From Xiphias gladius (Eukaryota > Chordata > Actinopteri > Istiophoriformes > Xiphiidae): DNA of 64,000 nucleotides. The stretch spans positions 24,059,206 through 24,123,205 of the forward strand of contig NC_053417.1 in NCBI RefSeq assembly GCF_016859285.1, given 5' to 3'. The position numbers were made by a program, and so were the translations under genes. Position 1 is the first letter of the stretch. The number at the start of each line of letters is the position of its first letter. Positions 14,908 to 37,899 of the stretch are shown here, piece after piece. The notes beneath the pieces are model-generated. The model saw only the letters and a program-made list of their open reading frames with translations. It made no database searches and was not told the origin of the DNA.

Positions 14908-17246
14908 TCAGTCATCTTCCTCTTCTTCGTCCTCTATGGGATCTAGGAGAATGCTGTGCTTCAAGCAGGTTTGCAGGAAGTTCACCACTGTCCGCTGGAA
15001 GTGCTGGATGCTGCGGGGCTCTCTCAGGATGTGACCCTCGTCTGGGTACAGCTGCAGTGAGTAGTTGGCTTCCACCTTCACCAGTCGGCTCAGGAGCTCA
15101 GCACTGTGCTGGAAGTGCACCCTCGCTTTGGCCAAAAGCACATAACATACATTGAAAATAGGGCTGTGAAAAATAAACCTAAGAGTGAACTCCAAAAGTC
15201 AGCAGAAAATTTGACAAAATCTCACCATCTGCAGTTCCATGTACAATAAGGAAATTCTCATCTTTCAGCTTGTTAACCTCCTCCAGCAAAGAGGCAGTCT
15301 GAAAAGATACACGATTACAATATGAGTGCTTTATTAGGTTATCCTCTCTAGCTAAAAATAGTGCAGTCCAACAGAACAGCCCTACAATAAATCCTACCTT
15401 CATAAAAGTTTTAATGTTCTTTTTTTTTTTAACTGTCTTAGAGATGTGCTAATGAAACTTTATGGTCATCTTGGTGGCTGTATGTTGTGGTGCGGTTGAA
15501 CTGTATTGCATTATACTGAGCGGTTTTTCTATTGATCAGTCTGCCCCCGTTGACATAAACGGAGTGGACGAACGATTAGAAACATCTCTAAGTATAACAC
15601 AATACAATTCAACTGCACCACAAACTAAAACTGCTAAAACGACTATAAAGTTGAATTGAGACCCCTCTGAAACGGTTTTAACAGAAACCGAACATTATAA
15701 CCATCATGAAGACAGGATTTATTGGTGGACTGCTGTATTAAACCGCGTTAGTTCTGGGTAGTAAACTTGCAACTGGGTGTAAATCCACAACCATTATTAT
15801 TAAATGACTGAAACGATTTACACCTGAACAAATGAGTTCAGAGCATTAGCTCTAGAGCCTCACCGAGTAAGCGTGCTCCTCCTTTGCTGGAAGGCCTAGA
15901 TATCTCTCTGAGAATGCAGCACCTGAAAACAGTGGAATAACCTTTACTCCAATCCATCAACCTTGTCTCTGTTTCACCACAATTTCCATGGCCTCACTGT
16001 ATGTATATTTGAAGACATGAATGCAACTCACTATAAAGCCTGAAGTCAGTGATTGGGGCCACAGCTGCTGTGCACTGAAAGAGCTTATCTGTTGCAGCTA
16101 ACATCTTCAGAGTTAAATATCCACCGAATGCCTGTAATGGGAAACAGAAAAGTGCTAAAACAAACAAAGCCTGCGATAGCTTTGACGGCTTCAATAGAAT
16201 GTAACTCAGTTTAAAAATGAAACAAATGCTGTAACCTTGCCATAGAGGGCCATCCGATGATCATCAATGTACGGCAGTTGCATCAACAGCCTGTGTAAAC
16301 ATCATAAAACACATTATCAACTCATAGGCTTTATTCTCACATGTCAATCAAAAAGCCTTCTGTTGTTGCATAACTGCACTGACTCCACAACTTCCAGATA
16401 ATCTTTGACTCTAAGTGAGCCAAGCTTGCGTGGATCCACAGCAGCGGTCTTCTGTCCACGGCCAACCCCGCTCCTGCCGTCCACCCAGGCCAAGGCCACG
16501 TTTTGTGTGCTGGAGAGGACCTGAGGCCAGTCGAGGGCAAATTCCTCCGTCACTGACTGACTGCCGGGTAAGCCGTCTCTGAGCAACAAGATGAACAGGA
16601 TCAGCTTGTGTGGCGACAGTTGTTAGAAAAAGGCTATGGATCATAGGTGACATTAAACAGCCCTGTCGTCTAGCGTGCTTGTTCAGTTTTACTTACACAA
16701 TGATGAGGAGAGGGTGCAGGTTGGCCTCGTAACCCTGAGGTAGAGATAGTTTCAGGTGGAGATCTAAGGAAAGCAAACAGGGGTTGAATAAGGTCAACTG
16801 TTGGTAGACATGTTAGGATTACTCCTAGATGTAAGAGCCTCTGCCTGAAATACTTCAGAACCTCTGAAGGACAGAAAAAAAGACCATCAAAAAGTTCATC
16901 CTTAATTTGAACAACAACAACAACAACAACAAAACATGAAAAAACATTCACAACCACACTGACACATGACTCACGCTAATGATCTAATCACCAAATATAA
17001 GAAATGATTGCTCTGGTTACTACTTAACTATCTTTGTGCCTTCCAGCCTGAGATACCTACAGCGAACGCTCCGTTGCCGCTGAATATAGTCTGACTGCTT
17101 GAGAAAGGCGCTGAAGGTGATCTGTGAATGCTTTGTGACTGTATTTGTGTGGCCAGTATCCTACATGTAACCATAACCATGTCATTTAGCTACTTAAAAA
17201 AGTGAGAGCAAATTCGGAAGAAAAAAAAAATTATATTATATTATAT

Positions 17247-17277
<31 letters not shown>

Positions 17278-20200
17278 GCAAGTGGTTTCTTTGTTGTACC
17301 ATGGTTGTCTGCTGGGAGTGTCCTGAACAGAGTCTCGGGGAGCCTCTTGTCCTCCAGGGCTTTAGACAGAGGGCTATTATCCTCCAAGACGAAGTATCCT
17401 ACGGGAGATAAAACAGCACTCTGCTTTATTTTTCATCCCAAACGTCAAGACAGACACTGTCTGCCCATCAGGTTGTGGAGCAAATCCATCATCTCCATGT
17501 AAACGGCTCTAACTGAGAGCCACAGACAGAGGGCAGTGTTCACAAGCAGGAAATGAATGAATCCACAGTCTATTTGAATATATCGCACTCTGCAGGCTGT
17601 CATAGGACACTGCAGACGGCCTATGTGTGTGCATGTGTGCATCTGTGCGTGTGTGTGTGTGTGTGTGTGTGTCAGTACATCATTAGAGTTACAAGAAGAT
17701 GTAACACTCACTGGAGGGGTCCTTTGTACTGTGAACTGTCACCTTAGGGATTCCAGGGCCTGGAGGATGTTTTCAAAAGACAACATTATGAAACCAACTG
17801 TCCAAGCAGCGTAATGCTTTCGTATTTATTGCAATTATGTATGTGTGTGCGTGCGTGCGTGTGTGTGTGTGTGTGCGTGCATGTGCGTGCGTCTCGTTTA
17901 CCTAAGCAGTAGAGGGTGAAGTGGGTTTGACTGGGGCTGAATTCAGATTTAAAGAAGCGACATCCATCTATAAGGTCGCAGGAGATGCAGCGGCGCTGAA
18001 AATCTCCATCCAGGTCCACACTTGGAAATAAAAGAATCGGGTTACCGACCACGCTTGAGAAGACCAGGACAGTCCAACGTGGTTTGATTTGCGCCAGGGG
18101 AGGGTCAACTTGCCAAGATATAAGGAAAAAGTGTCCGTGTCTAGAGACAAACTACTCAGGCAGCTGACTCTTCGGAAACAAATGGGGTTCAGTAAGGTTA
18201 GACATAAAACCCATTATATAGATTGCTCTGTTAGGCGATGTCAAGTCTCTGAAAGTCTCTCTCCACTCCACTGCTTACGAATATCATACAGGATTAATCA
18301 CAGACCGGGCTCAAACAAGCAATCTTCCGAAGCCCGAAGCTTTGTCAGATAATAAAAAGATACAAACCCTAGGAGGTAGATGAGGGAACAGGCAAGTGTG
18401 TTTATCACAGGTGGGACTATAAGTCTTAACAGCACAGAAGCTCCTTGTCCTCCGAGTTGTTTTTTTATTCTTTTTTTTTTTGTTTTGTTATAAATGAATG
18501 AGCATGAGCAGCGCACAACAATAAAGATGCACACATCAACACATTAGTGTGCAGTTACTCTTCCGATTGCTTTGGGGATGGCGACACCCGCCCTCCACTT
18601 CGGTCCACACTGAATTATCAAATCACCTATTGGATGGATTGCCACGAAATTTTGTACAGACATTCACATTATCCAAAGGAGGAAGTCTACTGATTTTGTT
18701 GATCCCCTGACTTTTCCTCCAGCGCCACCATGAGGTTGAAATTTTTGTTTCTTTAGCGAAATATCCCAACAACCATTGGGCGGATTGCCACGCAATTGGG
18801 TACAGATATCCATGGTGTCCATAGGGTGAATGCTAATGACTTTGGTGATTCTCTAGAGTTTTCACCTAGTGCCTAGAGCAGGTGAAAGTTACCGATAATG
18901 CAGACACGATAAAGGATTAAAGTCTGACTGAATGAAAAGTGAGCAGCTCTCAAAAAAGGAATCAAGAGATTGTTTTAAGATTTAAAACACAGCAAATAAG
19001 AAAACCGAAAACTCCACAGCCCACAAGACATCGTATCTTAGTGAGGGTGTAAATATCTGTTTATAGCATTGTATAAGAATGTGTGTTCATCGGAGTATTC
19101 GTCCGTTTTTTTGCTGGGAAACATGCTTACCTGTAAAGGTGTCTGCTCTGTCTGGATTCCTCTGTGCTCAGGAAATAGCTGATGAGGAGTCAAAACGAAC
19201 CACAGACACAGCAAAGTTACTCAACACTGTCAAAGAACCGCAAATCACCTCTGGGTATCTAAACTTCATCTTCATTATTCCGGATATCAATTATTCATGA
19301 CAAGAACCTATTTACACATATTTACATAATTCAGCGTGTTTCGAAAATCAGCTTTGTATCTTGTTTAATTTGTAAGTAAGCATTAGTGATGCTGATTTCA
19401 AACATTTGAGCAGTACATCACAGTATTGGTTTGTTGCCTATCCACGTCTATGCAAATTTAAGTAGAGTATTGTGAGACAGAATAACTTGTCTGGAGGCAA
19501 AGAGCAGTGTCAACCTGTGGGCTTTGGGACTGAAAACAACTGTCTGGTTCTACAATTGACTCTTATTGATTGTCTGTGATCCTCACACCTCAGTTCGTGA
19601 GGGGTTCCATCCCCCAGCAGGATAAAGAGAGATTTAAGCAATAATCTGCTTCTGTCGAGTGTAAGCAGTCCTTTGTCTTCTTCCGTGGCAATATATTACC
19701 ACAAGAAAAAGTTAGAGTCAAAGCCATTTCCTTGGGCATTTTCAAACTGAGATCAAGGCTACATGTTAAAATGGCATTTTTAGTTATTTTTAATAGACAA
19801 TCTTATGTGTACCATCCACCCAGAGTCTGACCTAAGGAAGGGATTTGTTCTCCAGCAGGCGACGTGTCTAGAATTTGCTCTCTGCTTACAGCAAGAGATG
19901 ATCCTTTTAATGATGGGCACTGTTCTACTCAACTTGTATATTCATAGTGAGGAGCTGAAGGGTGATTCAACCCTGCTGCGCACACTGTGGCTCTCACATA
20001 CATTTTTCCAGCCTTCTCGTCTAGGGCGCAGAGCAAGGTGACGTCCCAGCTCCCCGATGTCAAGAAGCGAGGAGGGACAGACGGGATGGCAGGCTGCGTT
20101 ACACAGAGGAACAGAGATGGAGAGGAATGTAGAAGCAGGCAAATATACAGAATACAAATAGGTACAGCAAGTGTGTGTCAGAGGATGAAGATAGGTTCAT

Positions 20201-23200
20201 AAAGTTAAATTAAATGAGGGTGGCTACGGGGAGGGTTCAGAAAAAGCACTTTTTAATGATTTTTTTCATTTTGATGTTGGGACTGAAGTCAGAAAGACAC
20301 AGGAGAGAAAACTCTGGATTTAATCCAGAGCCACTAATGGTTTGCGTGAGCCCAAAGGTGTGGGACTTCACAACCAAACAACTATAAACCACATGCTCTT
20401 TCATGCCAAATATATTTTATTCTTTAATGAGAGGTTGTTAAACAAGTTGTTAAACTGAGATAGACTGAATTCCTTCCGAATTGTAAAGGGCAAAGGACCA
20501 CGAAGATATTAATCAGTGAAATGACTGCTTCGATAAAAATGGTGTTTCTGTTAATTATATAATTAAGGGAAAAAATAAAATAACTTAAATTGCTTTGCTG
20601 ATGAGAGAGATGGAGGAGATTGTGAAAAAAAAACAGATTCGTAATCACACACGGTTTTATGTGACCCTTGTTGAAATGTTAACAATTGCTTTTGTCATCA
20701 ATTATTCAAGGATGACACGAAGGAGTAAAAGTTAACAGCCCCGCAACTGACCTGGGCTGAAATACCGGCGATGTGGTGGAACTCTCCACGAGCGCCCTGC
20801 TTCGCTGGCAGGATTGTATAAAACACAGAGCCATCCGCTGAAAACAATGGCACGTCCTGTTGAAGGAAAGTATCAAGTCAGAAAAAAGGACTGTAGTGGC
20901 AAAGAGGTGTAGACAGACTTTGTGAAACATGAGCAAGACTTACCTGTCGTTGGTTTTGCATTATGTCCATGGCCATTTTGTATTTCTATGGATATAAAAT
21001 CATAAAATATAGAGAAATGTACTAGTCAAACCATTTAAAATGTACTTACATCAACAATCTAAAGCTAATTTAAATAGCATTGTATACATAAAACTTGTAA
21101 AGGTTATTATTTATTAAATATAGCATTAATAAATAACTGGCAATTGGTAAACTGGAATCTGTGAGGACCTACAAGAGGGGAACAAGCAATAAAATACTGC
21201 AATAAATCATTTAAAATTCTCCTAATGCCGCAAATGACCTTAAATATTAATCCAGCCAGTAGAGATTTGAGAGCTTAAGGAAATCAATCCTAGCTCCCAA
21301 CACTGTGTAAAAGAAGCAAAAATTCTATTAAAGCTGTGTATTGCGCCGAGGGCCGTTTGGATTACTAATGTGGAACGACTGATGACTGCTCACCTCTGAG
21401 CACGCCCCTGTGGTGGCCTCGCACACGCAGAGCACTGATTGGTTCTGGGCACGATTCAGCCAACGCACTGCTAGCCGGGTGCTGCTGATCCAAGTCACCA
21501 TGGAGATGTAGCTGTCTCTGAAGAGGCAATGCAGAAAAGTGGTCAAGAAGGAACGGGGGGAGAGAAGTAGTGAAGGGGAGAGGAATTGCGACGCGTAATA
21601 ATTTCTGACAGGCGGTGTCTAAAGTCTTAAAGCTTTATTCTGCTTTTACATTCACAAAGATATACTACCTGGCCCTGAGGGAGTCAGGAGGCATCATTTC
21701 CAGAGTGTGAGCAGGGCCATAAAGATTCACGACAAACAGACTGACGGATGGGATGCTCGAGCCAGCCTTTGATCGGAAAGAGAAAAAGATATCAGACCAA
21801 CTCATAAAAACACGTGTAAATTTTAGCAAATCTTTTTAGCCACACTAGCGGCAATGGCAATGTCGGTCTGTCGGTCCACCACTTTGGTCCAGACTGAAAT
21901 ATATATTGGCACCAGATTTTGTACAGACACTCATTGTTAACAGACGGTGCATCTTAAAGACTTTGGTGATCCCTTGACTTTTCCTGTATCGTCACCACGA
22001 GGTTGACAGTTTGTTGGTTTGTTTGTTTGTTGGTGAAATGTCTCGACACCTATTCGATGGATTGCCATGAAGTTTGGTGGAGACGTTCATGTCCGCCTCC
22101 CGATGAACCGTAATCACTTCGGTGATCCCCTGAGCCATCGTCAAGTCAAAATGTTAATTTGTCCAAATTATGACCAAATACCTTCATAAAGAATGACCAG
22201 CTTTAGAAAATGCTAGCATGCTAAACCAAGATGGTGAACATGGTAAACATTACGCCTACTAAACTTAAGCGTGTTAGCATTGTCAACTGTGAGCACGTTT
22301 GCATGCGGATATGAGGATTCAGATCAAAGCACCACTGTGCAGCCTCATTACAGAGCCCCTAGTGTTGCTGTAGACTCTTAGTCCTCTTTTAACCAGTTTT
22401 CACCTTGGGGTAGGGGAAGAGCACATTGGAGGGATAGAGACCACCTAAGAAGTGAGGTATTTCCATCACAGGTGTGGCAGAGTTGTTGACGCTGAGGTAT
22501 GCCAGCCTGGCCCCGTCCATGGACCACCAGTGGGCAACATACGTCAAGAGTACCTCCTCTGTTTTAAAAGACAGTGACAGTCTTTAATGCCAAACACAAA
22601 CCATAATTTCCGCTTTTATATTGGTTATAGCTGTCAACTTGGTTTTGCAGATTTGCATGAGAAGCTGGAAGACATCCTACCCTCATAAGTCCAGTCAGAG
22701 AGCCCATTCACCACATTCTGCTCCTGGTCAGTGGTTGTGAGACGCAGGGGTTCGCTGGTCACACTCGGTTTGTAGTAGATATCGCCGTCAAACACAAAGG
22801 CCTGGCATGAGCAGCAAGGAGAGACAGTGCCAATCCATTATCAAAGACAGTATGGTTGCAGGCCCCATCGCTGGCTGCCTGAATTGAGCGCCGGACGCCG
22901 TTCAAGAGCGAATGAATCTTCGCAGCCAGCACGCACATGGGTAAGAGCCAATAAATCTTTACTTGCCAGTTAATGTGCTACAGATGAGCACTGACATAGC
23001 GGCAAAGGCAAATTACATTACAGGGGAGGTAGATGAATTATATACTGAGTGTAAAGCAAACCCATTGTAGCAGCACAGTCACTGCAATAAACTCTACGCT
23101 GGAGGTCTTTTCATAATGACCCAGAGATGGTATCATTGATGTTATCTTTATGAAAATTATGTCGAATGAAGGCCATTCATAAACAGCCAGTGTTATTATA

Positions 23201-26200
23201 GACTGAAAAGGTTGAGAAAATCTTCTTATTATACTGACAGGCACAGTTGATGCAAATGACAGCACATCGATCAGGTAAATGAGAAAGTGGCTTACCAGCT
23301 GGTTGCCCTGAGGCCCCCAGGAAGCATACTGTAGCACTGCCCTCTCCCTCTCCGGAGGGTTAAGCTCCAGCAGATCCCTGGGACACACACAAAAACTCAC
23401 AACATAAGCCCTCCATTAGGGACGACTGTCCTGTTTACAGCCCCTCTGATGTCCAATCCATGCCCCGGCCTTGAGAGAGATACTGTACTGTGAGGACGAA
23501 ATGAGCAAGATGCAGTAGAGGGAAAACAAAACAGATAATGGGGCTGGCTCATGCAAGAGTGCAACTTTTCTTTTTCCATATTTTAAGCCGCACTTTTTGC
23601 TTCCTCTGGATAGGCAGACCTTTTTTCTCCAAGGCACATTCAGGCAACGGTTAATATCGCGTGTCCTCCTGAAATCCTTTCCAGAACCACTCGTCAGAAG
23701 TTCCAGGGATCATCCACAGCTACAGCAGAGTTTTTCCACGGATATAATGCGGAATATGAATCTCAGGCAGTGAAATCTGAAGTACAGTACAAACCTTACG
23801 TTGGGATGTGGAACCAGGAAAGAACACTGACGAATGAATGCATGTCTGACAGAAATATGAGGTTCTGATTCGATGAGACACGCTTTGGGGGACGTTTTTC
23901 AATCTGCGGGTCTGCTTGCATTGGTAACACTCATGCCCAGTGCAGCCCATGCATTAGCATTCACGATTCCACCTACCCATTAGCCACACTGTAGATAGCA
24001 TAGGAGGCTGTGAAGGACTGTGAGAACACCTGAAAAAGGTAGAGGATATCATGCACACAAGTGTGCCACACTTAGATGACACCGCATATATTTTACTGCT
24101 CACACATGCTCATACACATGTATAAATAAAGTTAAAGGCAAATGAAACACAGGTTATGAAGGACACTGCTGTGGCCGATCTTACAGTTGAGCAATAAGCA
24201 ACAGGAGGCTGTGTTTGCATTCTCTGACATCTTATTACTGCATCAAATGGTTTATTGTTTCAAAAAAGGGGCAGCAACACACAGTTATGCTACAAAATTA
24301 GAAAGGCGAATATTCATCAAAATCAATTTATTGACAGATGGTAAAAAAACAATTCAATGTAATTTTTTCAGCTAAAAAGCAGTTGTAACAATGTGTCTCA
24401 TACTTTAAGTATCTGTATGTGTGGTCATTTTCAGTAGACCCAGTATTTTATTAATGCTTTGATTGTCACTGAGCCAATCACAGCTTAGTACTATGGACTT
24501 AATTTATATGGATCATTAAACCGCTGGCAGCAATTTAATCCATATTACATTATTATTGAGATCACATCTGAACAGCAGACATTTGGATCACAGGGATCTT
24601 AACTTAAGACTGAGTGAAAGAGACAACGTCAGCGACATGACAATGGGAAGAAAAACACAGAAACCGAGACAGACGATCCTATTAAATAGCATCATTACAG
24701 CTAATATTCTTCCCACTGAGATCTATTGTGGTTGGCAACTCTGTCGCAACCCTGACACGAGCATCAGCAGTTTGGTGAATAATTAAATTAACACGCTGAA
24801 GATGACCAAGGGAGTAGGATCAATGAATGTGTGCGTTTGTGCGTCTGTGTATTAACCGCAAATCGATCGCAGCATTACCTGATAAGCTCTACGAATTATA
24901 TTGATTTCTAGCTTCTTCTTTTTTTCTTTTTTCTTTTTGTTTCAAGCAAAGGGTTGGAAGCGGGGCCATTTGCCCAGAGGCCTCTGAAAGCCTCAGCCTC
25001 CTAGAAACCAGTACCTAGAGAAATTAAATGTCACATCCTCTATACAGAACCCATAGCAGTGAAATTGGTTTCCTCTTCTGTGTTGTTTATCGGTTTTTAG
25101 AAAATGCATGGATGGAGTGACACAGGGTTAAAGCTGCAGGGGTAGAGGAGGGGAAATAAATTCTAAGGCTATCTAAATGAATCTGAAATCTGATTGCGGT
25201 GTAAAGCCTGAGCATGAGGTGATACAGGGTCTACAGGAAAAGAGCTTTGTTTCGACAGAAAATAACTGTAAGAACAGGAAGAGGAAGGAATGAATTGGTC
25301 AAACGCTAGAGGAAAACGTGAGGGAGGGAGATAGGGAGAAAGAAACAAAGACAGGAAGTGAGTAGAGGATGCAGAGAGGGCATAGTCACTTGCTGACAGG
25401 CCAGAGTTGACAGGTAATCGTCACACAACGGGGGCTGATCTTGAGTTACAGGGAGTATTACTCTCCGAGACCAAAGGGGGCAGCATTGCCATGACCACCA
25501 TGTTCAATCAGCCATTGATGATTTGTTAAGGAACCCAGAGATTCTGCTCATGATTTAACATCATGAAAACGGTGGCGGGGGCTGTACGTTATTGTGTGCT
25601 TTTGTGCGTCTGTGTGATAAACAGAGAGAGTGAGCGCATCTGTCTTAGGGCGGCAGAGTGAACGCTACTGTGGCTGCCAGCGCCATGTCATAAATCCTCC
25701 AGATTGCTCCGCTCATCATCCCCCTTTACAGGCTGCCCTCCTCCTCAGCCCATGCTGCCAACACGTTTTTATTTTGGGGGGGGGCACAACACACAGAAGA
25801 ACACAGAAGAACACGAAAGGGATAGCGTGGGATAACATGAAAAAAAATATATACAGATTACAACACCCTTTTGCATGAGCAGAGGTATTTGGATCTTTTC
25901 GACACAATAGACATAATAGCATCCTTCCTTCTCAGCATTGTTCCTGCCTCACAAGCATGTCTTAGCAGCCCCACAATGCACTGCCTTTGATACCGACATC
26001 CATCCGCGTTTGGTGCAGAGTGCACGCACAATCCCCTCGGCATTTCATTTGTCCCTAAACTGGACTGCCTTGGCAGGCACCTCCACTTGACTCTGCTCAT
26101 CAACCCAAAAAAACCTCCATCTCCTCTAACCTATCTCGCCATTACTCTTTTAAAAATAAATAGGTTTTCTCTGTCTGCTTTTCTCCTCTCGCAAACACAA

Positions 26201-29200
26201 ACACGAGCCCGGCGTAATTCAAACGGGCTCTGAAGAGAAACGTTTTCCTGTAGGAAATCTGCTTTATCTTGTTCCTATGTGGCCGAATCCCTAACTCACA
26301 TCTGTGTATACCCTCTAATCAAAACCCATTTATTTTTCACCCACCAGGCACAGAACCTTCCCTAAAGCCTCCAGAGCTAATACAAAATCTGACTGATTTC
26401 GACTGGGGAGTGTATCTAAGGGAAAATGGTGCATATTCCATTGTCTTCTCCCGTCCATCACTATTGGCTTTCCCCACTGCTCTCTCTGTTTTTCTCTCTC
26501 ATTCTCTGCCACTCTCAGCGGCGTGCCGCTCCTCTTCCGAACAGCGAAGCGGGGCGCATGTCGCAAACTGCTTCAGTCAGCACAAACCCCCCCCCCCAGA
26601 GATAGACAGACAAAAGTGAGAGTGAAGAAGATGAAGCGGGAGAGAGAAAGAGGGACCTAGAAAGAAGGGGAGAATGGAGGAAAAGCTCTCATGCACAAAT
26701 AATGCCAACCATGTTCGCACAACCATATCACATTTCTAAATATACAAAAGATTCCAGGTGGCATGCCCACTGCCTCTGATTTCCTCGAGTGTGCAGACAC
26801 ACTGAGCGTACAGATGAGAAGAGACGATTCCTGATATCAAAGGCAGTATGCTAATGACATGGCACAAATCAACCAAAGCAATCCACAAACTGGGCAAATA
26901 TCTGAGCCCTTTCTCTACAGAGATATCTGAAAACCGATTGACTGCATGTTAACCGCTTAATAATTCAGTTAGGATGCACTGTGACGAACGCTGTAACACA
27001 GCAACAGGCTCATTCGTTCCCCCCCACACACAGAAAACATGATACACCGTGATTAGAGCAAAAGCAGGTCTCTCTAAAGAAAACCCAGAGGGATAGAACA
27101 GACAGAACGAGCGACAGTGCGACGGAGCGGCCAAATCTGTCCTCAAATTTTAAATAGAAATGCAAAGGAAATGTGCTGAGGCCTTTCATTTCCTCCTAAT
27201 TCTGTTTTCTTCCTTCGCCGATTATTTGCACATTACACATCTTGCCTGCCCTTTGAGGAAAGACCTAACAATTTATTAATGGTACGGGTATTTGCAGAGT
27301 GAGACGGCTGGTGGGGGATGGAGGAAACCAGCTATGTGGTGCTAAAGTAAAGGGAGCAAGAGATCTGTGTTTTGTAAACCCCAACGCTTATCTGAAACCC
27401 CCCCGCCGTCGTGGTTCTCGTCAGCTCATTAGAATTCCCCGCCGAACCAGCAGGGCGATCTCAATACCGCAGCTCCAACCTCACCTCTTCCTCCCCCTTG
27501 ATCCCCCCTGCCCCTTGCCAACCACTTCGCACTGATCACTCACTCTAAGCTTCCCTCAACCCGCTGCACCTTCCGCCATCAGCCAGTTTAAATATTCAAC
27601 CCCCCATATGTTACCCCAGTCACTTGGCAGGCGGTGCTATAGAGCTACAGACTGCTGCAGTAGCAGAAATCAGCACACCCACACGCGTCGGTCTTTCTAT
27701 AGCTGTGAGGACACTCATTGACATAACGCATTTCCTAGCCCCCTTTCCCCCGACGTTAATCACAAATGGTCAAAATGTCCTTTCAATGATGCTGGCAAAC
27801 CAAAATATGTCCACACAACCACAGAAAGACACGTATGCACGAGTGCGCGCGCGCACACACGTACGTTCTCCTTCATGTTTCACTCCTTCTCTCTTTTGCT
27901 TCTTCGGAGCTCTGATCAAAATGCATGTCACTGTTGTTTCGCAGCCCCTAGTGGCCTGCCAGACATGTGTAGGTTTGTGAGCAGTAACGGCTTGTCTTTG
28001 ATTTTAGTGCATAATTTATAGCCCCGGATATCTTTTTTTGACGGTGCTTTCCGTGCTCAATCTGTGTCAACTTAGCATTCAAAGAAAACTCACCGGTTGA
28101 ATGTTGTATGCCAAGAGGACAAACGTCTTGTCTGCGGACACTTGGAATTTAGTGCTGGTCAGATCCTGTGGAAAAAAACAAAGCAAAATTACACAACACC
28201 TCATCAGCAACATCCAGTTGGTCTCCCCTTTGGAGAAAGTGGAATGGGATATCAGTGGTTTCCTGCCTATTTATCCAACTGTAGGTGTTTTGGATCCATT
28301 GCTGACAAAGTGTCTGATTGTTCTCTTCTGCCCTGTGCAGCTCCTCAAGGGTCATTTCTGGGACGTGTCCCTTTACACGCTCCCTTTATGGCACGTAATC
28401 TGCCAGTTTGGCTCTCTCTCTTATGACTGCTATGCTAATGATGCCCTGTTTTATTTGTGAAACCTGGGGAACTTTCAAACTCTGGCCGTTTTACATAACT
28501 GTCTCAAAGTCACAGTGAAACAGAAGTTAGCGCATCCTAATCTTCTGTAATGTGACGTGTTTCTGGGTGAAACTCGTTCGTGGACCCTGGCATTAGTAAT
28601 TACAGAGATTTAAATCAGACCCTTTAGAATTTATTGGATTGTGTGACTTAGTGAATACAGAGTGTTTTAATAGAAAGAGAAAAGAGAGGCACAGTCATAA
28701 CCCTGGTCACCTTTGAAAAGTGATTATGCCGTTGAGGCTCAATAACTTTTACAACCATAAAGTCAGTGTCTGTAAGAGATGCTGAACCAAAGTTAAAGAG
28801 GCTCAAACGTGGTAGAAATGTAAGTTGGTCTTGTTTTGCCATAAAAAAGGAAATATAGGGCGTATAGTAGCACTTTTTGTACGGAAAACACTTCGGAGCC
28901 GTAGCCACAAGGCTGAACTAATTCTGTGTCAACAGCTGTTGCGGTGATTTGGGGATCTTGAAATGCTTTGCATAGATAGAGTGTGGAGGCTTAGAGCTCT
29001 CAAAAAATGTATAATGTGTCAAGGTTGTGTGATGGCTGAGTGTAGTACAGACCAAAACGGTGCTACAAAGGCCAAAGCGTCCCACAGAGGGGACAGTGTA
29101 TTTTATAAGGTTGAAAAAGAAAACTGCTCCCCTTCTCACCTTTCCAACAGCTCAAAGAAGTCATCCATTGTGCTGTGTCCTGACATCTTGACTATTGTAA

Positions 29201-32200
29201 TGTACTATATTCTTGTTTAAAGCCAAAAAGCTGTAGCACAATGACATTTGGTTCAAAATTCTGCTGTACATCACTAACCAAGGTCCAAAACGTTTCCTCA
29301 TTTCACTGGTGCCGGCTTTACCACAACTTACTTTGCCCTTCATGTCAAATTTATGAGTTTTGATTTATGGATTCAAAACCCTTCTTTTAAGGTGTTACAC
29401 GCTTTGGCTCCAGGATTTGCTGTAGCAGCGGTTTTCCTGGTACCATCCATGTCCATTAGGCCTCCCAAGTCATCAGATTGTTCCTGGCGATCCAGCTTTT
29501 GCCGTCCTGACTCCCACATTATGAAACGTTATCCCTCTTGGTGTTGTATCAGCTATATTTAAAGCAATATTAATGCCCCATTTTACACTGTTGTCGGTCA
29601 CTAAGCTGAACTGCGATCGCCTACCGAACAACGCATTCAAATGACAACATTTGCCCTGGTATCTGCAGCTGTGTCGCTTTTTCCAGTGGCATATAACCAA
29701 AACATTCCAGTTTGTAAATCACAGTGGGACACAAGGGACACCTTAGACCTTATGATCCCTAGTTCAGGTTATGAGAAGCTACAGGGTATGTGTTGCTAAA
29801 TTCCCATAGTGGAACGAGCTCTGTTGGGTGTTAATCTCAACTCAAAACCTGTTTATTCTCAAGAGGCATTTTGTTAAAGCTTCCTTGCTTTGATTTGTTC
29901 GTACTATTTGACCATTTTGGCTTGACTTTGAATTAAATATTGATTCAGATGCCTTTTATCTTTTTTTTTGCTGTAACTGTGAAGCACTTTATAACCCAGG
30001 TTTTGAAAAGTGATATACTGATGAAGTTTTTTTTGTTACGCACTGTGACTCTTAATTTCAAAGTTTGACGCTATTTTCTACTAAAATTATCTCAGGAATT
30101 CTTTATTCAGGGAGAACCCAGGTACTTCTTGGTGTGCACACGAGACGGTATCTTTTTCTGGGATTATCGACAGCAGCAGGGACGACAAACCCTCACAACA
30201 GCGGAGAGAGACTTCTTCTCAACCTGACAACACATCCCTGCTTTAAGCTCCTCGGCGATGACCCACATAAATCCGTCAGTGTCGTGCAGAGGCGGTGTTC
30301 AAAATGATGCCCTTGCTTGGAAAATTCTCTTTGAAGGCACATGTTGAGGGCTCACAGAGCAGCCAGATTGGAGGGAAAATGAGCTGATGCTGTCACTCTG
30401 CCTCTTTTTTTTTTTGTGTCTCGGCTGCGGGATGTGGAACAGTGGGAGTCCACAGCCTGTCTTTCTCTCAGTCTAGAAGCACCTCCCTTTATGCTGAACC
30501 AACCAGTCCGGCTGTCCCTGGATACGAGCCAATCAAGGCTGAAACCTGTCCTCTGTCCTCATAAGCTGTGTTGTAACTCACCAGGGAGCTGTTGTCCAGC
30601 AGAGTCGTGGTGAGGTTGCCGTCGAGGCTGAACGACAGGACGCGACCCTCTCTGGTGCGGAGAGCCACCTCGTTTTCTGACAGGGTTGAGACAGTTCAGT
30701 GATAGAGGGTCCTGTGTTATTAGAGTGATGACTTAAATCCGCAGAGCCAGAGATGGTTGCTATGTCTGCAAACCAGTGGCCCAGTTTCAGGTGAGATCAT
30801 TAGAGGAGTAATTTGTGAGTCAGAACAGGGATCCTTACCATTCAGCCATGCTACGCTGGGGTCGTGAACTTTGAACTCCTCCCTTTCCAGATCCTCCATG
30901 GTGAGATGCGAACGGAGTAACAAGTGAGATTCATCTTTAAGGGCAGAGAGACCGAGTGGGTTAGTTCATCAGAAACTCTTTTCTGTGTATAGACAAGCAA
31001 AGCCCCAGCATTTTTGCAGCCTGGCCTATTTTTCTGTTTCAGTCTTCAGATTTTGAAAAAAATACTCATATTCGCTTTATGGATGATAGTTAAATGTTCA
31101 TTGAATGTAGCTTGGTATTAAAACTGGAGGCAGTGGGAAGTAGCTAGCCTGGCTCTGCCTAATGACAACAAAATCCACCTGCCAGCAGCTCTAAAGCTCA
31201 CTAATAAATTCATTCTGTCTTGTTTGTTTAATCCATACACACACCGAAGTGGAAAAATATCAAATTGCTGTTTGCGGGGAGGGGTTATAATCTCTCCAAG
31301 ACTATTTCGTGGTTGCCTGGCAACTGCCCAGAGCCAGGAAATAAAATGGCGAATTGTCGTTTTTTTATCAACAAGGTATAAAGTGTTAATTTGCTATCTT
31401 TAGTGGCGCTAATAGCATATTTTACTTCCTTTGGAGCCAGACTAGCTGTATCCAGTCTTTGTGCTAAGCTAAGCTAACCGATCTTCTCTTCTTACCTTCC
31501 ACCAGAAAGTAAATAGACCCAAATCCCAGAGTTTCAAACTATTCCTCCAATTCCCCACATTACAGCTCCTCTCTGCTTTGCTGCTTTTACCCTGCTCCGG
31601 CTCCTCACCCCCTTTTTCTTTTTCTCTTTTTCCACATTCTTACCAGGCGTGAGGAGGATGACAGAGAGAATGACCAGAGACATAACAGCCAGGATCACCA
31701 CCATGGCAATTCCTATGCCCTTCCAGTTCCGCGGGGGACCGTCTGTGCTCCCCAGGTCCTGATATTGAAGGGAACACACACACAAACACAGTGACGAATG
31801 TGCGCACAGCCGGAGAAGAGGACATTAGTGCTACTTCATTTCCATAGTCTCACAGAAATTCTTCCCTGAGAGGCAAATCAGCACAGTGAGCCTCAGGGGG
31901 GATTGAGACCAGTATTCAGTATCAAGGAGACCTCGCTGAATTACACTATTTTCCCATATGAGAACTGCATGAAATTGTTCGATTTAAGAGATGAGACGTT
32001 AATTGCGGCAGCAATTTTTCGCCGCACCATCATTTTTCTACACCCCTGCCTCATTTGACCTGCGACTGATGGGCCATGTGATATTGCTAAAACAAAGGGG
32101 GTTGGGTGAAGTTATCAAGAGATGTGAGGTGTCTGAATGTACAGTGTGCTTTTATAGAAAAAGCTGTCAGCTACTTAATCTGCAGAGAGATGCTTCGGTG

Positions 32201-32766
32201 GATCGGGATTTATTCTACGGCTCTGGATGAAGTTGTTAACGAGGCAATAAAAAAAGGACAAGAAGATAGCACTATATAACTATGCGGTGCTTTATAGACA
32301 AAGCTGCAGTTGCCAACAGAGCAGAACTTCACGTTTAGGCTCAGGTCCTTGTATACCCTCTGCATGCGATCAGGGGGAACTGATGGAATAAGCCGGCACC
32401 AGTATCAGTCACAATTAAACACAATTGCGTGCTTTTCCCAGGCTTTGTTCCACTCCCTCATAATGAGTGTCTGGCACTGCTGGAGCCACATGCCCGCTGG
32501 AGTCTGAGAGTTCAATCACGGAGCAACCATAAAACTCAGCCTTCATTAGGGCTCCTCAGCCCTTTGGCGTAACCCGTCACAGCCTCGCTGGCCCCCGATC
32601 ACCTTCCTCAAGGCCTTGGGGAGGCAGACAGCGGAAAGAGGGCGTCTTTGTGGTTCACTGGTCAAAAGATTGCTGCTCCTCCGTGCTGCCTGGGTGACAC
32701 CAGCTGTCCCTGAGTCTGTGCTAGTGGCCGCACTCGCATTGAAACCACCACCTGCCACTTCCTCTG

Positions 32767-32797
<31 letters not shown>

Positions 32798-35700
32798 ACA
32801 TCGAAAAACACACACATATACCAACACACAAACATACAATTTTGTACCCCCCTAGACTGTCATTCCACTGACTAACTCAAAGCTCCTGGCACTTGGCATA
32901 TTGCAGTGCTGAAAAACTGACCGTGTACTAACATAACTAGAGTCTGAATGTATTAAAAACCAATTTCAGAAAATTGAAACAGTGAATTCTGCAGAAACGG
33001 AAGATTAAAGGCCATTGCAGTTGCACCAGAAACAGTGGGGTTTCTTAAGATATTTTATGGCTACTAGTGTCATTTATGTAAGCATTAATCCTTGATACAC
33101 ATTTTTATCACTTTTGACGATTCATTTCAGAGGTTTTCACCTCCTATTAAAAGGAAGCGGGTTTACTTTTAAACTCGAGATGGGTGGAAAACATACAAGG
33201 TCCGCTTTATCTCGACTGGTTTCCAGCGCAGGAGTCCTGCCAAGGTCTCATCTTTAATAGATACCTTTGGCTGCAGTATTATAACATGTTCAAATTAAAA
33301 CCACAACCAGTCGCACTTGCAGGGACAACTTTTAAGTGATGTTACAACTCTGAGTGCAGGCCAGAGCTGGGTGATTGAATGCCAAGGCTGTGTATGTACT
33401 GGCCTTTCTGACACTGCGGTCTTATCTCATTCTCCTGCCCTCTCAGCACTCCAATCTCTCAGTGAACCACTATAATCCTTCCATCAGATAAAGAAACCTA
33501 CAGTAGTCTATGAAGGCTTTGGTAGAACACAGTCAATACTGCCTCATACTGCACCTTCAGCACTTTCTGTTTGACCGAAGAGGTACAATTTTGAAAGAAA
33601 GTTTGAATTGAATCTCATCATACACACAACCCGGTTACATGTTGTGTAAGACTAGGATCCATGAATAGCAATGGCCATGTATCACGGTTACATATAAAAC
33701 ATATTATAAAGAATTAAATTGTGATTCCAGGATCTCACAGTAGAAAGACACATTTCAAATTAAATTCCTCCACTTGACTGATTCCACCACACAGTATTTT
33801 CATTTCCAAGTCCCCCTCTAATTACTGTGCGCATCATGAGAGCTGAACATCCTCCTAATGGGATGCACAGCTCCTGTCATTCCCCTGGGCCAAGACATTA
33901 GACAATACTTCCAATTAATGTCGCGTCATTGTTAAGACGGAGAGGGAGAATCCCACATTTGTGTGGACGAGGAGTTTTGTCACACTTGCAAATGAGGTAG
34001 AGATGCGCTGAGCAGAATCCCCAGAGCGAACACCGGCGAAGCCGCTGGTGCCGACTGGCCGCTGCTCACGATGCACGAGGGACTCTAGTGCAGCCCTATC
34101 TGCCGGCACAGGTGAACAGGTGACGAGCTGGGCTGTGTGACGCACCTGACGTAACTCACTCGGCACCCCGATGGACAAGCATACCTCAATTTATCAATCT
34201 CAGAATATCTCGGTTTTCTGCTGGGCCAGATCAAAAATGAATCGCACATAGACCTTCCTCTGCGAGCCTTCAATTTTATTCAGCCTGCCTGATCCCATAG
34301 GAGCTGGAGTAGAAGCCTAGATGAGGTGTCAGTCAAACACCAAAGGGTGGGAGAACGCGAATCAACGTTCTCTATGTTTATGGATAACCCTCTGCTATCC
34401 CCCCCGAGAGGATTTTTTTTAGCAGACCATGCAGCACTGCTTAAGAGAAAAGAGAGCTCTCACATTTGCCGACAGAGCTCGGGGAATTTACACTCAACCA
34501 AAAGAGAGAATCAATAAGGTGTACAGTTGTACAAGGTCCAGAGGGAAACAATTAATAGCGGGAATACAGCTGTAAAGGAGACTTGTAGATAGACGCCCCG
34601 TGTTGAACACTGGTTCTCTCAAAGTATGACACCTCCAAGTGGAATACCAAGACCTGTTCTGGCCTTTTTTACTATTTCAGTTTAAAAAAAATCATACTCA
34701 TCAGACTGGAACCATTTATTAAACTGTACAAAAACAGATTCCAACTAACTGGCTCCTTTTTTTCCTCAGAGCACTGCACACAAAATCAAACGATTCCAAG
34801 TGTATTGATTGAAACTGCACACTAAAAATGCAAGCCACACAAAACACAATTACTCAAACTGCACAGCATGCACCGTAGCTAGATTGTATAGAATCCAGGT
34901 GGTGCTACGAATTCATAAATTAGGCTCAGGAGACCTCCTTAACTCCATCTTCTGTGTCTTTGAGGCGCGGAGAATCCAACATTAAATCATATGCAAGGAA
35001 TGAGGGAACCAGTGCAGGCTGTTGCAAGGGATTCTGGTTCTGGATTCGCACACCTCCATACCCACCTTTAACATTAGGAAATGATGTTTATTACACACAT
35101 GACATTGGCAGAGGCATCAACGAAATAACCACCGCCATTAGAAGGGTGAGAACTATTGGCAGACACATACAGCCCTCAATATAACCTATATGCCCCTTTT
35201 TTTAATGATTCACTCTAATTGCTCACAAGGGAAAGCTGTAGATTAGCAGTAACCCACGTACGTATTACCTTGTCAATATCTCGCAGTGCCTCATTTGAAA
35301 TGAAGGTCGTCATTAGAGCAGGCTGTAACTTTGGCATGGTCGGAATAAATGGTAACCAAGCAGCTGTGGTAATGAGATACTACAGCTCAATATTGATTCA
35401 TATCTCGGCTATCTTTCATCAGATCCACAGGAATTCATGTGCTCCTACTCACTGCAGCACCATTGCTCCCTTTGTGTTTCTTATGTTTAAAAAGCAGTAG
35501 GTGGTATATACACCATATGGAACTAACTGGGCAGATTTTTTTTGCCCTCGAGGCTATTGCCAGAAAAATGCAGTCCAAGGCTCAGTGGGAAAAAAAAAAA
35601 AAGACCTGCCGCTTTAGCCTCTGCTGCTGCAAGGCTGCCCCACTGTCTTATTCTTTTCATGCTCCCCATCATGCATAAGAAAATTACAGTACAAAAGGGT

Positions 35701-37899
35701 TCTGCATGAGATATTTTTTTCCTCAGCATGTCCAGCGGCTCACAGTGACCGAGTTTCTGCCTTGAGAAAAGAAGCAACATCCCTAAGACACATGGGGGAG
35801 ATCTGTGGGTAACATGATATATAGAGTTACAGTAAAATATGAGAAATAATACGTTACTGCTCCCTAGGCTGAGACTCCACGGAAATACTGTATCGGCAAA
35901 TAGGATGCGTATAATACTCTCACGGTATACACTATATGAATTCACTGTGTCAGATGTGTCACATTGTCACATACTCAGTGTTGAGAATGAAAATTAAAAC
36001 AATAATGCATTTGACAAAACTAATTAAATCTCTTTTATTTTCTTCCTTAATGCCGGGGATTAACTGAACCAGAACATAAGTATTGTGTTTTGTGGCCTGG
36101 AACTGTGATATTGCTTTTGTAGTTTGATGTGACAGCGAGAGGTGTAGACATTTATATTGACTCTGCAATTCACTTTGCAGAGTCCGAAGTATGGCATGTT
36201 TAAAATGATGACAGACAAACATATGAAACAAGTAGCAAACCACAATATTCCCTACACCGCTGCATCTGCTCACCAACAGGGACACACATGGCAATCTGCG
36301 ACCCAGTGAAGCAGCGAAAAAAAATAAACCTTATTGACAAAGAGCAAAATGTGATTTGCATCGTCAATGGTTTTTCTGTGTAAAGCATGTTGCTCGGAGA
36401 CAGTGACATGAGATGTTGCGACATTTGCGGGAAATGGATCGTCTGTACGCCCCGCAGCACTGTGTGGCCCTTTCAAGGAGACTATAACGCTGCAGGATTA
36501 TTACACAGACGCCTTCGGACAAGTTTCACTAAGATTCCATCACATTAGCATGTGAGTGAAAGAACTGAAGGTTAGTGGGTCAATTAATGTCAGACATCAC
36601 TGTACTCAAATGACATACCAATTAGGCATAATTTATCTAATAACAACCGCTCTATTCAGTCTCTCGAAGACTCTCACCACCGGGGCAGCTGTTTACTAAT
36701 GATACCATGCCTGAGACTCTTTCCCAGGAAGGGTGACGGTCTGATAACATCTGTTAATTAGTTGACATGGCAGGATTTTAAAAACTCGTTCTCGGTCCCG
36801 TAGACCAACAGAGGAACTACGCTAACACTTCTGGACAATGTCAGATGGTGCATGAGAAAGTTTTATTCGCAGGAGGAAACACTGTATGTTAGTAATGCAT
36901 AGATACTAGTCATGAAAAAGTGTCTATTAGCGGTACGTCTAGCAGTAATATTACTGTATATTAAATCATTGGTAATTATCTCAAAATTCTATACACATTA
37001 AGCCATTAGTGGCCTCAATAATCTTGTGTAAAATCCGCCTACTTTACCATAACTGCTCTTGATGTAATATCTGAAATTGTGTTCTCACAAGTTAGTTCTG
37101 GCATAAAAAAAGAGGTGAAATGCCTTTTAAATAAACCAGAAAAAAAAAAACACACTGGAACTTACATGTGTGTTACAATTCAATAGGAGAGGTGCGTTAA
37201 ATGATCATTTAGAGAGGGTGACAGATATTTGACTAGATGCATGTGTCATTAAGGACTGGTAATAGTGTGAGCAATAAGCAGAAGATTATGGTTCATAGTC
37301 GTTCATAGCCAATACACCTACACAGGAGAGGGATAATCAATCACACAGTGCAGGTTGTGGGTCTGAGCCCCTTTATCACTGTGCAGGTCCAGGCTGGTGG
37401 GGACAGTCTGCTGGGACAAATTCGTATATCTGAATATTAGAAAACCCGAGAATTGTTGCCGATGCAGATATTATGCCGTAAAAGTCTGGATGGGACGGAC
37501 GAGGCGATAAGAGTGAGACGCTCTGGACGTCGAGTTACTACACCAGCCTGCACCGCAGTGCACGGAAGTCCGGGTGTCCAGAAGATTGATTTGGACGAGA
37601 AACTCTGAATGGACGAAAGGGCTAAAACATTAATCGATAGTCATCGTATTGTGGGCATGCATGAGGAATTCCCCCGGTGCACAACAGAGCACTCAACACC
37701 CCCCCCCACCACCACCACCACCCACAGGACAGACCAGACACACATGCACATGCACGCACGCACACTCACATTGGCTCTGAATCTTACGAAAACTAAGTAG
37801 CGATAAAACAATGGGGAGAAAAAATAATAAAAAAAATAAAAAACAAACACGCACACATACCAGCTCCGTGGTCATGTTCTGTTGAGTTGTGGCAATCAT
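14908..37899 (-). CDS. DPP6/DPP10-family inactive dipeptidyl-peptidase-like protein, probable third paralogue (complete, 25 exons)
   Basis: DPP6 and DPP10 are single-pass type II membrane proteins that tune Kv4 A-type channels. Exons: 37861-37899, 31644-31758, 30839-30934, 30582-30676, 28094-28165, 23977-24029, 23296-23377, 22681-22801, 22404-22558, 21669-21766, 21394-21517, 20944-20985, 20752-20856, 20002-20093, 19131-19178, 17902-18020, 17712-17759, 17300-17398, 16697-16763, 16384-16578, 16236-16290, 16032-16131, 15864-15922, 15226-15298, 14908-15125. All phases join: 2370 bp, 789 aa (human DPP10 is about 796). A short cytoplasmic tail leads to [14 protein letters not shown] and one membrane helix, then a beta-propeller (DWTYEEEVL, WLNRAQN, CISCDL) and an alpha/beta-hydrolase domain. 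The nucleophile motif is GKAFGG (Ala641); Asp717 (HGTAD) and His749 (YPDEGH) remain. [10 protein letters not shown] resembles DPP6, [14 protein letters not shown] resembles DPP10. The tail is acidic. I take it as a third paralogue; orthology to DPP10 is the alternative. Confidence 0.9.
15455..15653. mobile_element. foldback MITE-like element
   Basis: A roughly 200-bp near-palindrome in the intron between exons 24 and 23 of the DPP-family gene. The left arm (ACTTTATGGTCAT, then TTGTGGTGCGGTTGAACTG) is matched by the reverse complement of the right arm (ACTTTATAGTCGT, then TTGTGGTGCAGTTGAATTG). Pairing continues, with mismatches, almost to the centre. No coding capacity. Confidence 0.75.
16909..16931. 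repeat. (CAA)n microsatellite
   Basis: About seven to eight CAA units in an intron of the DPP-family gene, seen directly. Confidence 0.85.
17231..17277. repeat. (TA)n/(TTATA)n microsatellite behind exon 18 donor
   Basis: TATAT-type repeat grading into pure TA, starting about 20 bases downstream of the splice donor of exon 18 (17300-17398) of the DPP-family gene, as read on the minus strand. Confidence 0.9.
17648..17672. repeat. (TG)n microsatellite, (CA)n on the transcribed strand
   Basis: Pure TG run; in the transcript it is a CA repeat beginning about 40 bases after the donor of exon 17 (17712-17759) of the DPP-family gene. Confidence 0.9.
17838..17890. repeat. (GT)n/(GC) microsatellite, CA-rich on the transcribed strand
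   Basis: Mixed GTGC/GT repeat; in the transcript it is a CA-rich tract starting about 10 bases after the donor of exon 16 (17902-18020) of the DPP-family gene. Confidence 0.9.
18575..18900. repeat. teleost dispersed repeat, partial copy with internal duplication
   Basis: Carries the widespread fish motif 'ggatggattgccacgaaat ... gtacagacattca ... ggtgatcccctga' twice, about 146 bases apart (around 18636 and 18782). A longer copy lies at 21840-22380. In an intron of the DPP-family gene. Confidence 0.7.
21840..22380. repeat. teleost dispersed repeat, long copy
   Basis: Same family as 18575-18900 (cactttggtccagactgaaat, gtacagacactca, ggattgccatgaagtttgg). It continues into the 3' part, 'gctagcatgctaaaccaag' to 'gcctcattacagagcccc', which the first copy lacks. 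It sits between exons 10 and 9 of the DPP-family gene, ending about 25 bases from exon 9. Confidence 0.7.
24030..28093. other. large intron of the DPP-family gene between exons 6 and 5
   Basis: Four kilobases with many short chance reading frames, a C-run near 26588 and CA/GC-rich simple sequence near 27845. No exon, RNA gene or clear transposon was recognised. Confidence 0.5.
28200..30030 (+). mobile_element. decayed LINE (L2/CR1-like non-LTR retrotransposon), reverse-transcriptase remnant
   Basis: On the plus strand, opposite to the host gene, shifted frames retain non-LTR reverse-transcriptase landmarks. These are an APQG motif near 28340, a [12 protein letters not shown] (Y-A-D-D block) near 28425, an LDYCNVLYS block near 29195 and an [10 protein letters not shown] block near 29390. 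The 3' end (gtgaagcactttataaccc, then ttttgaaaagtg) near 29980 resembles tails of fish L2-type LINEs. Stops and frameshifts make it non-functional. It lies in the intron between exons 5 and 4 of the DPP-family gene. Confidence 0.75.
31125..31480. repeat. teleost dispersed repeat (tagcctggctctgcc ... tgctaagctaagctaacc)
   Basis: The block opens 'tagctagcctggctctgcc', continues through 'ctctaaagctcactaa' and 'gccaggaaataaaatggcg', and closes 'tatccagtctttgtgctaag' plus repeated 'ctaag'. I know this combination as a repeat common in fish introns. It sits about 160 bases from exon 2 of the DPP-family gene. Confidence 0.55.
31759..37860. other. first intron of the DPP-family gene (6.1 kb)
   Basis: Holds a (CA)n microsatellite at about 32767-32806 and scattered A/T runs. 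Several chance frames of 60-140 codons show no domain features. An alternative first exon, as known for DPP6 and DPP10, could be here, but I could not identify one. Confidence 0.5.
32767..32806. repeat. (CA)n microsatellite
   Basis: Pure then interrupted CA repeat in intron 1 of the DPP-family gene, seen directly. Confidence 0.9.

Follow-up and report, generated by a model that had tools for sequence, protein, structure and literature searches.

The window analysed here is a 64,000-nucleotide (nt) stretch of the Xiphias gladius genome on the contig labelled C18. Between cs (citrate synthase) and racgap1 it carries a gene for an inactive S9B peptidase, which we call X; a gene for a DUF1295 (PF06966) membrane protein lies between racgap1 and bin2, further out. 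X was rebuilt on the minus strand at window positions 37899-14908. It comprises 25 exons (2370 nt) that encode 789 codons and a stop, with no internal stop or frameshift, and all 24 introns have GT-AG ends. These coordinates agree exactly with a first-pass annotation of the stretch, which had read 25 exons and an intact 789-residue protein from the letters alone. A purpose-written spliced aligner supports the hand-made model. With human DPP6 (PDB 7ukg) as the query, it recovers exons 2-25 with identical starts and lengths, except that the final exon is 9 nt short, and with human DPP10 it recovers exons 3-25, the first and last of which are cut short where the query match stops. The hand-made protein contains both aligner-derived proteins; when the intron penalty is set too weak, the aligner creates spurious micro-exons and does not agree with the hand-made model. 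Exon 1 (39 nt) is predicted from its splice donor, without homologue backing, and has, by a narrow margin (7.5 versus 7.4), the top donor score among the 168 phase-0 candidates that start with ATG and lie between exon 2 and window position 41000. The GC content at third codon positions is 64%, versus 42.5% in the introns. Intron 1 also contains a possible alternative first exon, [23 protein letters not shown], at window positions 35269-35337 on the minus strand, which has a good phase-0 donor and may be due to chance.

X belongs to the family of DPP6 and DPP10, which adjust fast potassium channels of neurons. Its protein contains the two Pfam domains of this architecture, DPPIV_N (7e-93; propeller, residues 125-490) and Peptidase_S9 (3e-41; hydrolase, residues 573-774), in line with the DPP6/DPP10 architecture read in the first-pass annotation. 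Compared with the sequences of solved structures, X matches human DPP10 first (E 3e-245) and DPP6 second, with DPP4 and FAP far behind, and a chance resemblance to DPP10 is excluded. The ectodomain identity is 48.7% between X and human DPP10 (713 columns), 43.6% between X and DPP6, 52.4% between DPP6 and DPP10, and 32.3% between X and DPP4. When a bacterial homologue serves as the root, the tree unites X with DPP6 and DPP10 in a clade apart from DPP4 and FAP (support 99.9/100). A search of viral and prokaryotic contigs for fish relatives yielded only one bacterial homologue.

The derived sites of the family, taken from an excerpt of PMC4350108, are present in X: Lys640 replaces Trp, Ala641 replaces the catalytic Ser, and Asp558 occupies the Tyr547 site. 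Among the nine family proteins compared, the Lys is kept in seven and the Asp in eight. The residue at the catalytic position is Gly in human DPP10 and the fish dpp10A, Asp in mammalian DPP6 and dpp10C, Val in dpp6A, and Ala in dpp10B and dpp6B as well as in X, which rules out Ala as a mark of X alone. The S9B loop DGRGSG reads DGRSGV in X and departs furthest from the common form compared with the 13 other proteins. All eight disulfide Cys align, which would give four disulfides including the C349-C356 pair, whose C356 is missing from all five DPP4/FAP proteins compared. X also retains sequon 748, both dimer anchors (Y274 and H759) and, of the six glycosylation sites of DPP10, five. X is a type II protein with its transmembrane helix in exon 2, where 19 of 28 residues are identical to DPP6, versus 44% in the ectodomain.

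X resembles each known relative in part. With DPP10 (DPPY, inactive dipeptidyl peptidase 10; PDB 4wjl), it shares the architecture, the full set of Cys, the dimer anchors and five of the six N-glycosylation sites, but it differs in the residue at the catalytic position, the altered loop, the loss of the last intron and the chromosome on which it lies. With DPP6 (DPPX, A-type potassium channel modulatory protein; PDB 1xfd and 7ukg), it shares the architecture, the helix and the VDGxPGSQSV block; unlike both mammalian DPP6 sequences, it contains sequon 119. Judged by sequence, the active S9B peptidases DPP4 and FAP share the fold family with X, and their exon pattern closely resembles its own; they retain GWSYGG and lack both C356 and sequon 748, and the mammalian proteins are 31-33% identical to X. 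The motif resemblances to DPP6 and to DPP10 quoted in the first-pass annotation are real, but the mosaic pattern it read from them is absent. The 106 sites at which X agrees with DPP10 and the 70 at which it agrees with DPP6 are randomly intermingled: in a runs test, 12681 of 20000 permutations equalled the observed value or fell below it. This rules out X as a DPP6/DPP10 mosaic or a gene-conversion product.

The dpp6, dpp10 and dpp4/fap-like models from the same genome have most exon lengths in common (e.g. 53, 121, 155, 98, 195 and 55 nt). In six of seven paralogue models, the 3´ end consists of 73-nt and 74-nt exons followed by the final one (the seventh, dpp10C, lacks a modelled 3´ end), whereas X ends with 73 and 218 nt. 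The 218 nt correspond to 74 + 141 nt in dpp6A and dpp6B and to 74 nt plus the last exon in dpp10A and dpp10B, which indicates that the last intron was lost in X. An intron loss inside exon 20 was also considered and is ruled out, since the 195-nt exon recurs in six of the seven paralogue models. According to an excerpt of PMC3973911, DPP6 and DPP10 have 25 core exons after the first exon. X has 24, the last intron being absent, which is a structural variation and no ground to exclude X from the family.

To place X among its relatives, the whole genome (691 Mb, 1298 contigs) was scanned. DPPIV_N matches number 28 from 37 candidates, all of which were scored, and lie on C5, C6, C13, C14, C16 and C18. 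The genes typed and modelled are dpp6A (C5), dpp6B (C14), the inverted pair dpp10A and dpp10B (C16), dpp10C (C13) and two dpp4/fap-like genes. The identity to the human orthologue is 65.8% for dpp10A, 64.0% for dpp6A and 62.1% for dpp6B, and 56% each for dpp10B and dpp10C. X is 48.6% identical to human DPP10, 48.0% to dpp10A, 43.6% to human DPP6, 42.1% to dpp6A and 43.0% to dpp6B; it thus falls at 42-48% against the five fish dpp6/dpp10 genes, and human DPP6 and DPP10 are 52.6% identical in the same comparison. Because two dpp6 and three dpp10-like genes lie elsewhere in the genome, X is not the sole dpp10 or dpp6 of this fish and is distinct from its dpp6 and dpp10 genes. The suggestion of the first-pass annotation that X is a third copy beside separate dpp6 and dpp10 genes therefore holds, and the objection that it named, that X is an ordinary sole orthologue, fails.

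Several features of these paralogues were noted in passing. The genes dpp10A and dpp10B lie tail to tail on C16, and their 195-nt hydrolase exons (C16:3602367-3602561 and C16:3624162-3624356) are 97.4% identical, whereas 17 other exons of equal length are 47-76% identical. This near-identity may reflect recent gene conversion or an assembly effect. dpp10C (C13:3.30-3.33M) groups with dpp10A in the tree (97.2/98) and reads GEDYGG at its dead active site. Its exon 7 and 3´ exons defied modelling, and it may be fast-evolving or decaying. Two further DPPIV_N loci, at C14:11.00M and C6:10.9M, have no tblastn match to DPP4, FAP, DPP6, DPP10 or X at E up to 1e-3 and are presumably dpp8/dpp9.

The main tree comprises 14 proteins and 699 columns, with two gene models trimmed and one partly masked. 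Topologies were compared by the approximately unbiased (AU) and Shimodaira-Hasegawa (SH) tests under the LG+I+G4, WAG, JTT and LG+C20 models, and also with a reduced set that omits the two fast dpp10 copies. X branches near the base of the DPP6/DPP10 family. Every test rejects its nesting with the fish dpp6 genes (AU values no higher than 4.3e-5 in the four models with the full set and 0.0002 with the reduced set), and its grouping with the fish dpp10 genes is rejected by AU under LG (0.0085), WAG (0.0003) and JTT (0.003). The reduced set likewise rejects X with dpp10A (0.0105). The nearly three-way split of X, DPP6 and DPP10 is the trace expected of early genome duplications, although the tree alone is no proof of them.

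The genomic neighbourhood provides a separate line of evidence. Hedgehog, engrailed and HOX genes are known to share a paralogon. In human, CS, RACGAP1 and BIN2 lie at 12q13, LMBR1 adjoins SHH, and LMBR1L adjoins DHH. The swordfish genome has six homeobox clusters, on C18, C24, C3, C22, C9 and C16, which like its doubled dpp6 and dpp4/fap genes point to a fish. The C18 cluster contains 11 homeobox matches at 15.52-15.63 Mb, all of which were read, and we take its homeodomains to represent, in order, paralogue groups 13, 12, 11, 10, 9, 8, 6, 5, 4, 3 and 1. Since groups 12 and 8 together with 6 and 5 fit HOXC only, this cluster is HOXC-type. On C16, which carries dpp10A and dpp10B, three of six matches were read, as groups 12, 10 and 4. 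Group 12 restricts this cluster to HOXC or HOXD, and it is likely HOXD. C24, with four of ten matches read, and C22, with one of five, carry clusters that are presumably HOXA-like, so that hoxa is not together with dpp6 here.

Among the best 150 of 237 candidates scored, four engrailed genes stand out at 85-88% to the query, with the other listed matches at 57% or below, and they lie on C5, C14, C13 and C16, the four contigs on which the dpp6 and dpp10 genes are found. All 11 hedgehog matches are located on the same four contigs and on C18, the contig of X. The C5 and C14 hedgehogs are nearest to human SHH (94%), and for those on C13 and C16 the identity does not clearly separate SHH from IHH. 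Both the C5 and the C18 hedgehog have LMBR1-family matches nearby, at about 90 kb and about 11 kb, respectively; matches stronger than that on C18 are found on C19 and C20. The first-pass annotation had placed X on a further sister of this paralogon, and the HOX, hedgehog and LMBR1 families bear this out at the scale of whole contigs. We infer that dpp6, dpp10 and X lie on three sister chromosome groups, which correspond to SHH/EN2, IHH/EN1/HOXD and DHH/HOXC, respectively. The linkage is in keeping with an early-vertebrate duplication, and X would then fit the paralogon known for the hedgehog, engrailed and HOX genes.

Taken together, it is highly probable that X is a third inactive member of the DPP6/DPP10 family, an ohnologue approximately as old as the DPP6-DPP10 split, which is carried by the hoxc/hedgehog chromosome and is distinct from dpp6 and dpp10. 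A number of results weigh against this reading. In the tree, X can be placed deep as the sister of DPP6, as the sister of DPP10 or outside both; these topologies lie within 2.3 log-likelihood units of one another and none of the three is rejected. X has the longest terminal branch (0.71), and as the sister of human DPP10 alone it survives AU at 5% in every model (LG 0.123, WAG 0.123, JTT 0.075, LG+C20 0.293). On the chromosomes, the engrailed copies are assigned to engrailed as a whole rather than to en1 or en2, and no hox cluster appears on the dpp6 contigs C5 and C14 in the listed rows (best 150 of 452 candidates scored). The sequence of the C18 hedgehog did not type it as dhh (tree support 0/21), and its best PDB match is SHH. 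The LMBR1-type match on C18 is weak (29.4 bits, or 45.8 with frame neighbours; cut-off 31.9). X is separated from the hox and hedgehog genes of C18 by approximately 8.5-9 Mb, which makes the linkage chromosomal rather than tight.

The tree results leave room for X being a fast-evolving dpp10 duplicate, teleost or local, that moved to the racgap1 region and branches deep in the tree through a long-branch effect. Accelerated dpp10 copies do exist in this genome, as the 56% identity of dpp10B and dpp10C to human DPP10 shows, X itself is slightly closer to DPP10 than to DPP6, and the bacterial-rooted tree pairs it with human DPP10 (80.9/77), a pairing that the reduced set does not reject (0.108). 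With the fish dpp10 genes, LG+C20 gives an AU value of 0.128, and SH rejects the grouping in none of the four models (0.23-0.54). The expectation from the first-pass annotation, examined here with a bacterial root instead of DPP8/9, is thus upheld as to the position of X outside DPP6, and as to the fish dpp10 genes it is upheld by AU in three of four models but not by LG+C20 or SH. A simulation of branch lengths made without the fish sequences excludes only DPP10 tips up to 0.20 (0 of 120 each, against 5 of 120 at 0.24). Human DPP10 has a branch of about 0.23 since it parted from fish, so that this dating of X is only marginal and is superseded. The AU rejections given above, including that of the reduced set, nevertheless argue against a dpp10 duplicate, as does the rejection of X with dpp10B in three of four models (0.055 in LG+C20). 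Moreover, dpp10A/B and dpp10C already occupy two engrailed- and hedgehog-bearing contigs, C16 and C13, and the contig of X is the one expected for the hoxc/hedgehog sister. We regard this origin as improbable. An older origin, in which X split off before DPP6 and DPP10 and before the two rounds of genome duplication (2R) and lies on the hoxc chromosome by accident, appears more remote still. The topology with X outside both is within 0.75 log-likelihood units of the best (AU 0.58), but the tree is short in its internal branches, and chance would have to account for the presence of five hedgehog loci on five contigs that carry the family.

As a third family member, X is predicted to be an auxiliary subunit of Kv4 channels. 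An excerpt of PMC8566240 reports that the single membrane helix of DPP6S binds S1 and S2 in the voltage sensor of Kv4.2 and may accelerate the movement of S4, and in an excerpt of PMC4350108 the glycosylation sites of DPP10 matter for its surface delivery. X retains this helix, both dimer anchors and all but one of the six glycosylation sites, which makes a Kv4 auxiliary role the simplest inference. In this model, X would be expressed as a membrane glycoprotein of type II topology, its one helix packing against S1-S2 of Kv4 channels and its dimerising, catalytically dead propeller/hydrolase ectodomain lying outside the cell, and it would speed the activation, inactivation and recovery of the A-type current. 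It would supply no N-type block of the DPP6a/DPP10a kind. An excerpt of PMC3366920 describes a pore-blocking MNQTA start, the MNQT(A) inactivation ball, which comes from an alternative first exon and marks only the DPP6a and DPP10a variants. Within the window there is no exact match to ATGAAYCARAC, and with no ATG-Asn-Gln-Thr start N-type block by X is not expected.

X may instead be a true third member that is no longer a Kv4 subunit and has another role, in adhesion or with another channel, or is decaying. Its divergent S9B loop, its terminal branch and the lack of an MNQT-type start in the window are compatible with such a change. However, the reading frame is intact, the membrane helix is better conserved than the ectodomain, and the disulfide Cys, the dimer anchors and nearly all of the DPP10 glycosylation sites are retained, so that we consider this unlikely. 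Returning to X as a Kv4 subunit, the jawed-vertebrate ancestor probably possessed at least three DPP6/DPP10-type Kv4 subunits, with one on each of the SHH/EN2, IHH/EN1/HOXD and DHH/HOXC chromosomes. Of these, the third would have been kept in ray-finned fishes and lost toward mammals, and would modulate the A-type current in its own way, without an N-type ball and with a different dead active site.

Excerpts of PMC3973911 and PMC3366920 present the DPLP family as two genes. Among the literature matches listed, no title refers to a third DPP6/DPP10-type gene or to the duplication history of the family, and X is apparently an unreported third relative, although automatic database annotation may already list genes of this kind as dpp10-like. 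In line with the count of two genes in these papers, X appears to have been lost in mammals. A third ancient member, if true, changes the inventory of Kv4 auxiliary subunits, and its loss in mammals, if confirmed, may account for differences in A-type currents. Since the dead catalytic centre varies within the family (Ala, Gly, Asp or Val) while the disulfides, dimer anchors and helix are kept in X, the gene offers a natural test of the parts that are relevant to gating.

Table 1. Exons of X and neighbouring genes in window coordinates.
Feature	Position	Strand	Remarks
cs (citrate synthase), approximate extent	1264..7235	-	67-residue piece: Pfam Citrate_synt; best PDB match mitochondrial citrate synthase; extent from open frames
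X exon 25, 218 nt incl. stop, fused last exons	14908..15125	-	six of seven same-genome paralogue models: 74-nt exon plus last exon
X exon 24	15226..15298	-	hand model and spliced aligner
X exon 23	15864..15922	-	hand model and spliced aligner
X exon 22, AFGGY at start, Ala641 for catalytic Ser	16032..16131	-	hand model and comparison
X exon 21, YGK at end	16236..16290	-	hand model and spliced aligner
X exon 20, 195 nt, [10 protein letters not shown] and altered DGRSGVGRG loop	16384..16578	-	195-nt length in six of seven fish paralogue models
X exon 19	16697..16763	-	hand model and spliced aligner
X exon 18	17300..17398	-	hand model and spliced aligner
X exon 17	17712..17759	-	hand model and spliced aligner
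X exon 16	17902..18020	-	hand model and spliced aligner
X exon 15	19131..19178	-	hand model and spliced aligner
X exon 14	20002..20093	-	hand model and spliced aligner
X exon 13	20752..20856	-	hand model and spliced aligner
X exon 12	20944..20985	-	hand model and spliced aligner
X exon 11	21394..21517	-	C341 and C348, pair whose second Cys DPP4/FAP lack
X exon 10	21669..21766	-	hand model and spliced aligner
X exon 9	22404..22558	-	propeller dimer loop, Y274; hand model and spliced aligner
X exon 8	22681..22801	-	hand model and spliced aligner
X exon 7	23296..23377	-	hand model and spliced aligner
X exon 6	23977..24029	-	hand model and spliced aligner
X exon 5	28094..28165	-	hand model and spliced aligner
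X exon 4	30582..30676	-	hand model and spliced aligner
X exon 3	30839..30934	-	hand model and spliced aligner
X exon 2, [29 protein letters not shown]	31644..31758	-	juxtamembrane and transmembrane helix; 19/28 residues as in DPP6
X exon 1, [13 protein letters not shown]	37861..37899	-	start codon and short cytoplasmic tail; by splice donor, not homology
racgap1, approximate extent	40853..47633	+	joined pieces: best PDB match Rac GTPase-activating protein 1, 279 bits vs 70 next
DUF1295 (PF06966) membrane protein gene, approximate extent	50140..52860	-	92-residue piece, E 4e-29
bin2, approximate extent	53926..56840	+	joined pieces: best PDB match Bridging integrator 2, 198 bits vs BIN1 179

Beyond the genes listed in Table 1, a POU-type homeodomain is located 17 kb past the end of the window (C18:24140604-24140891), and the gene that contains it is presumably pou6f1-like.

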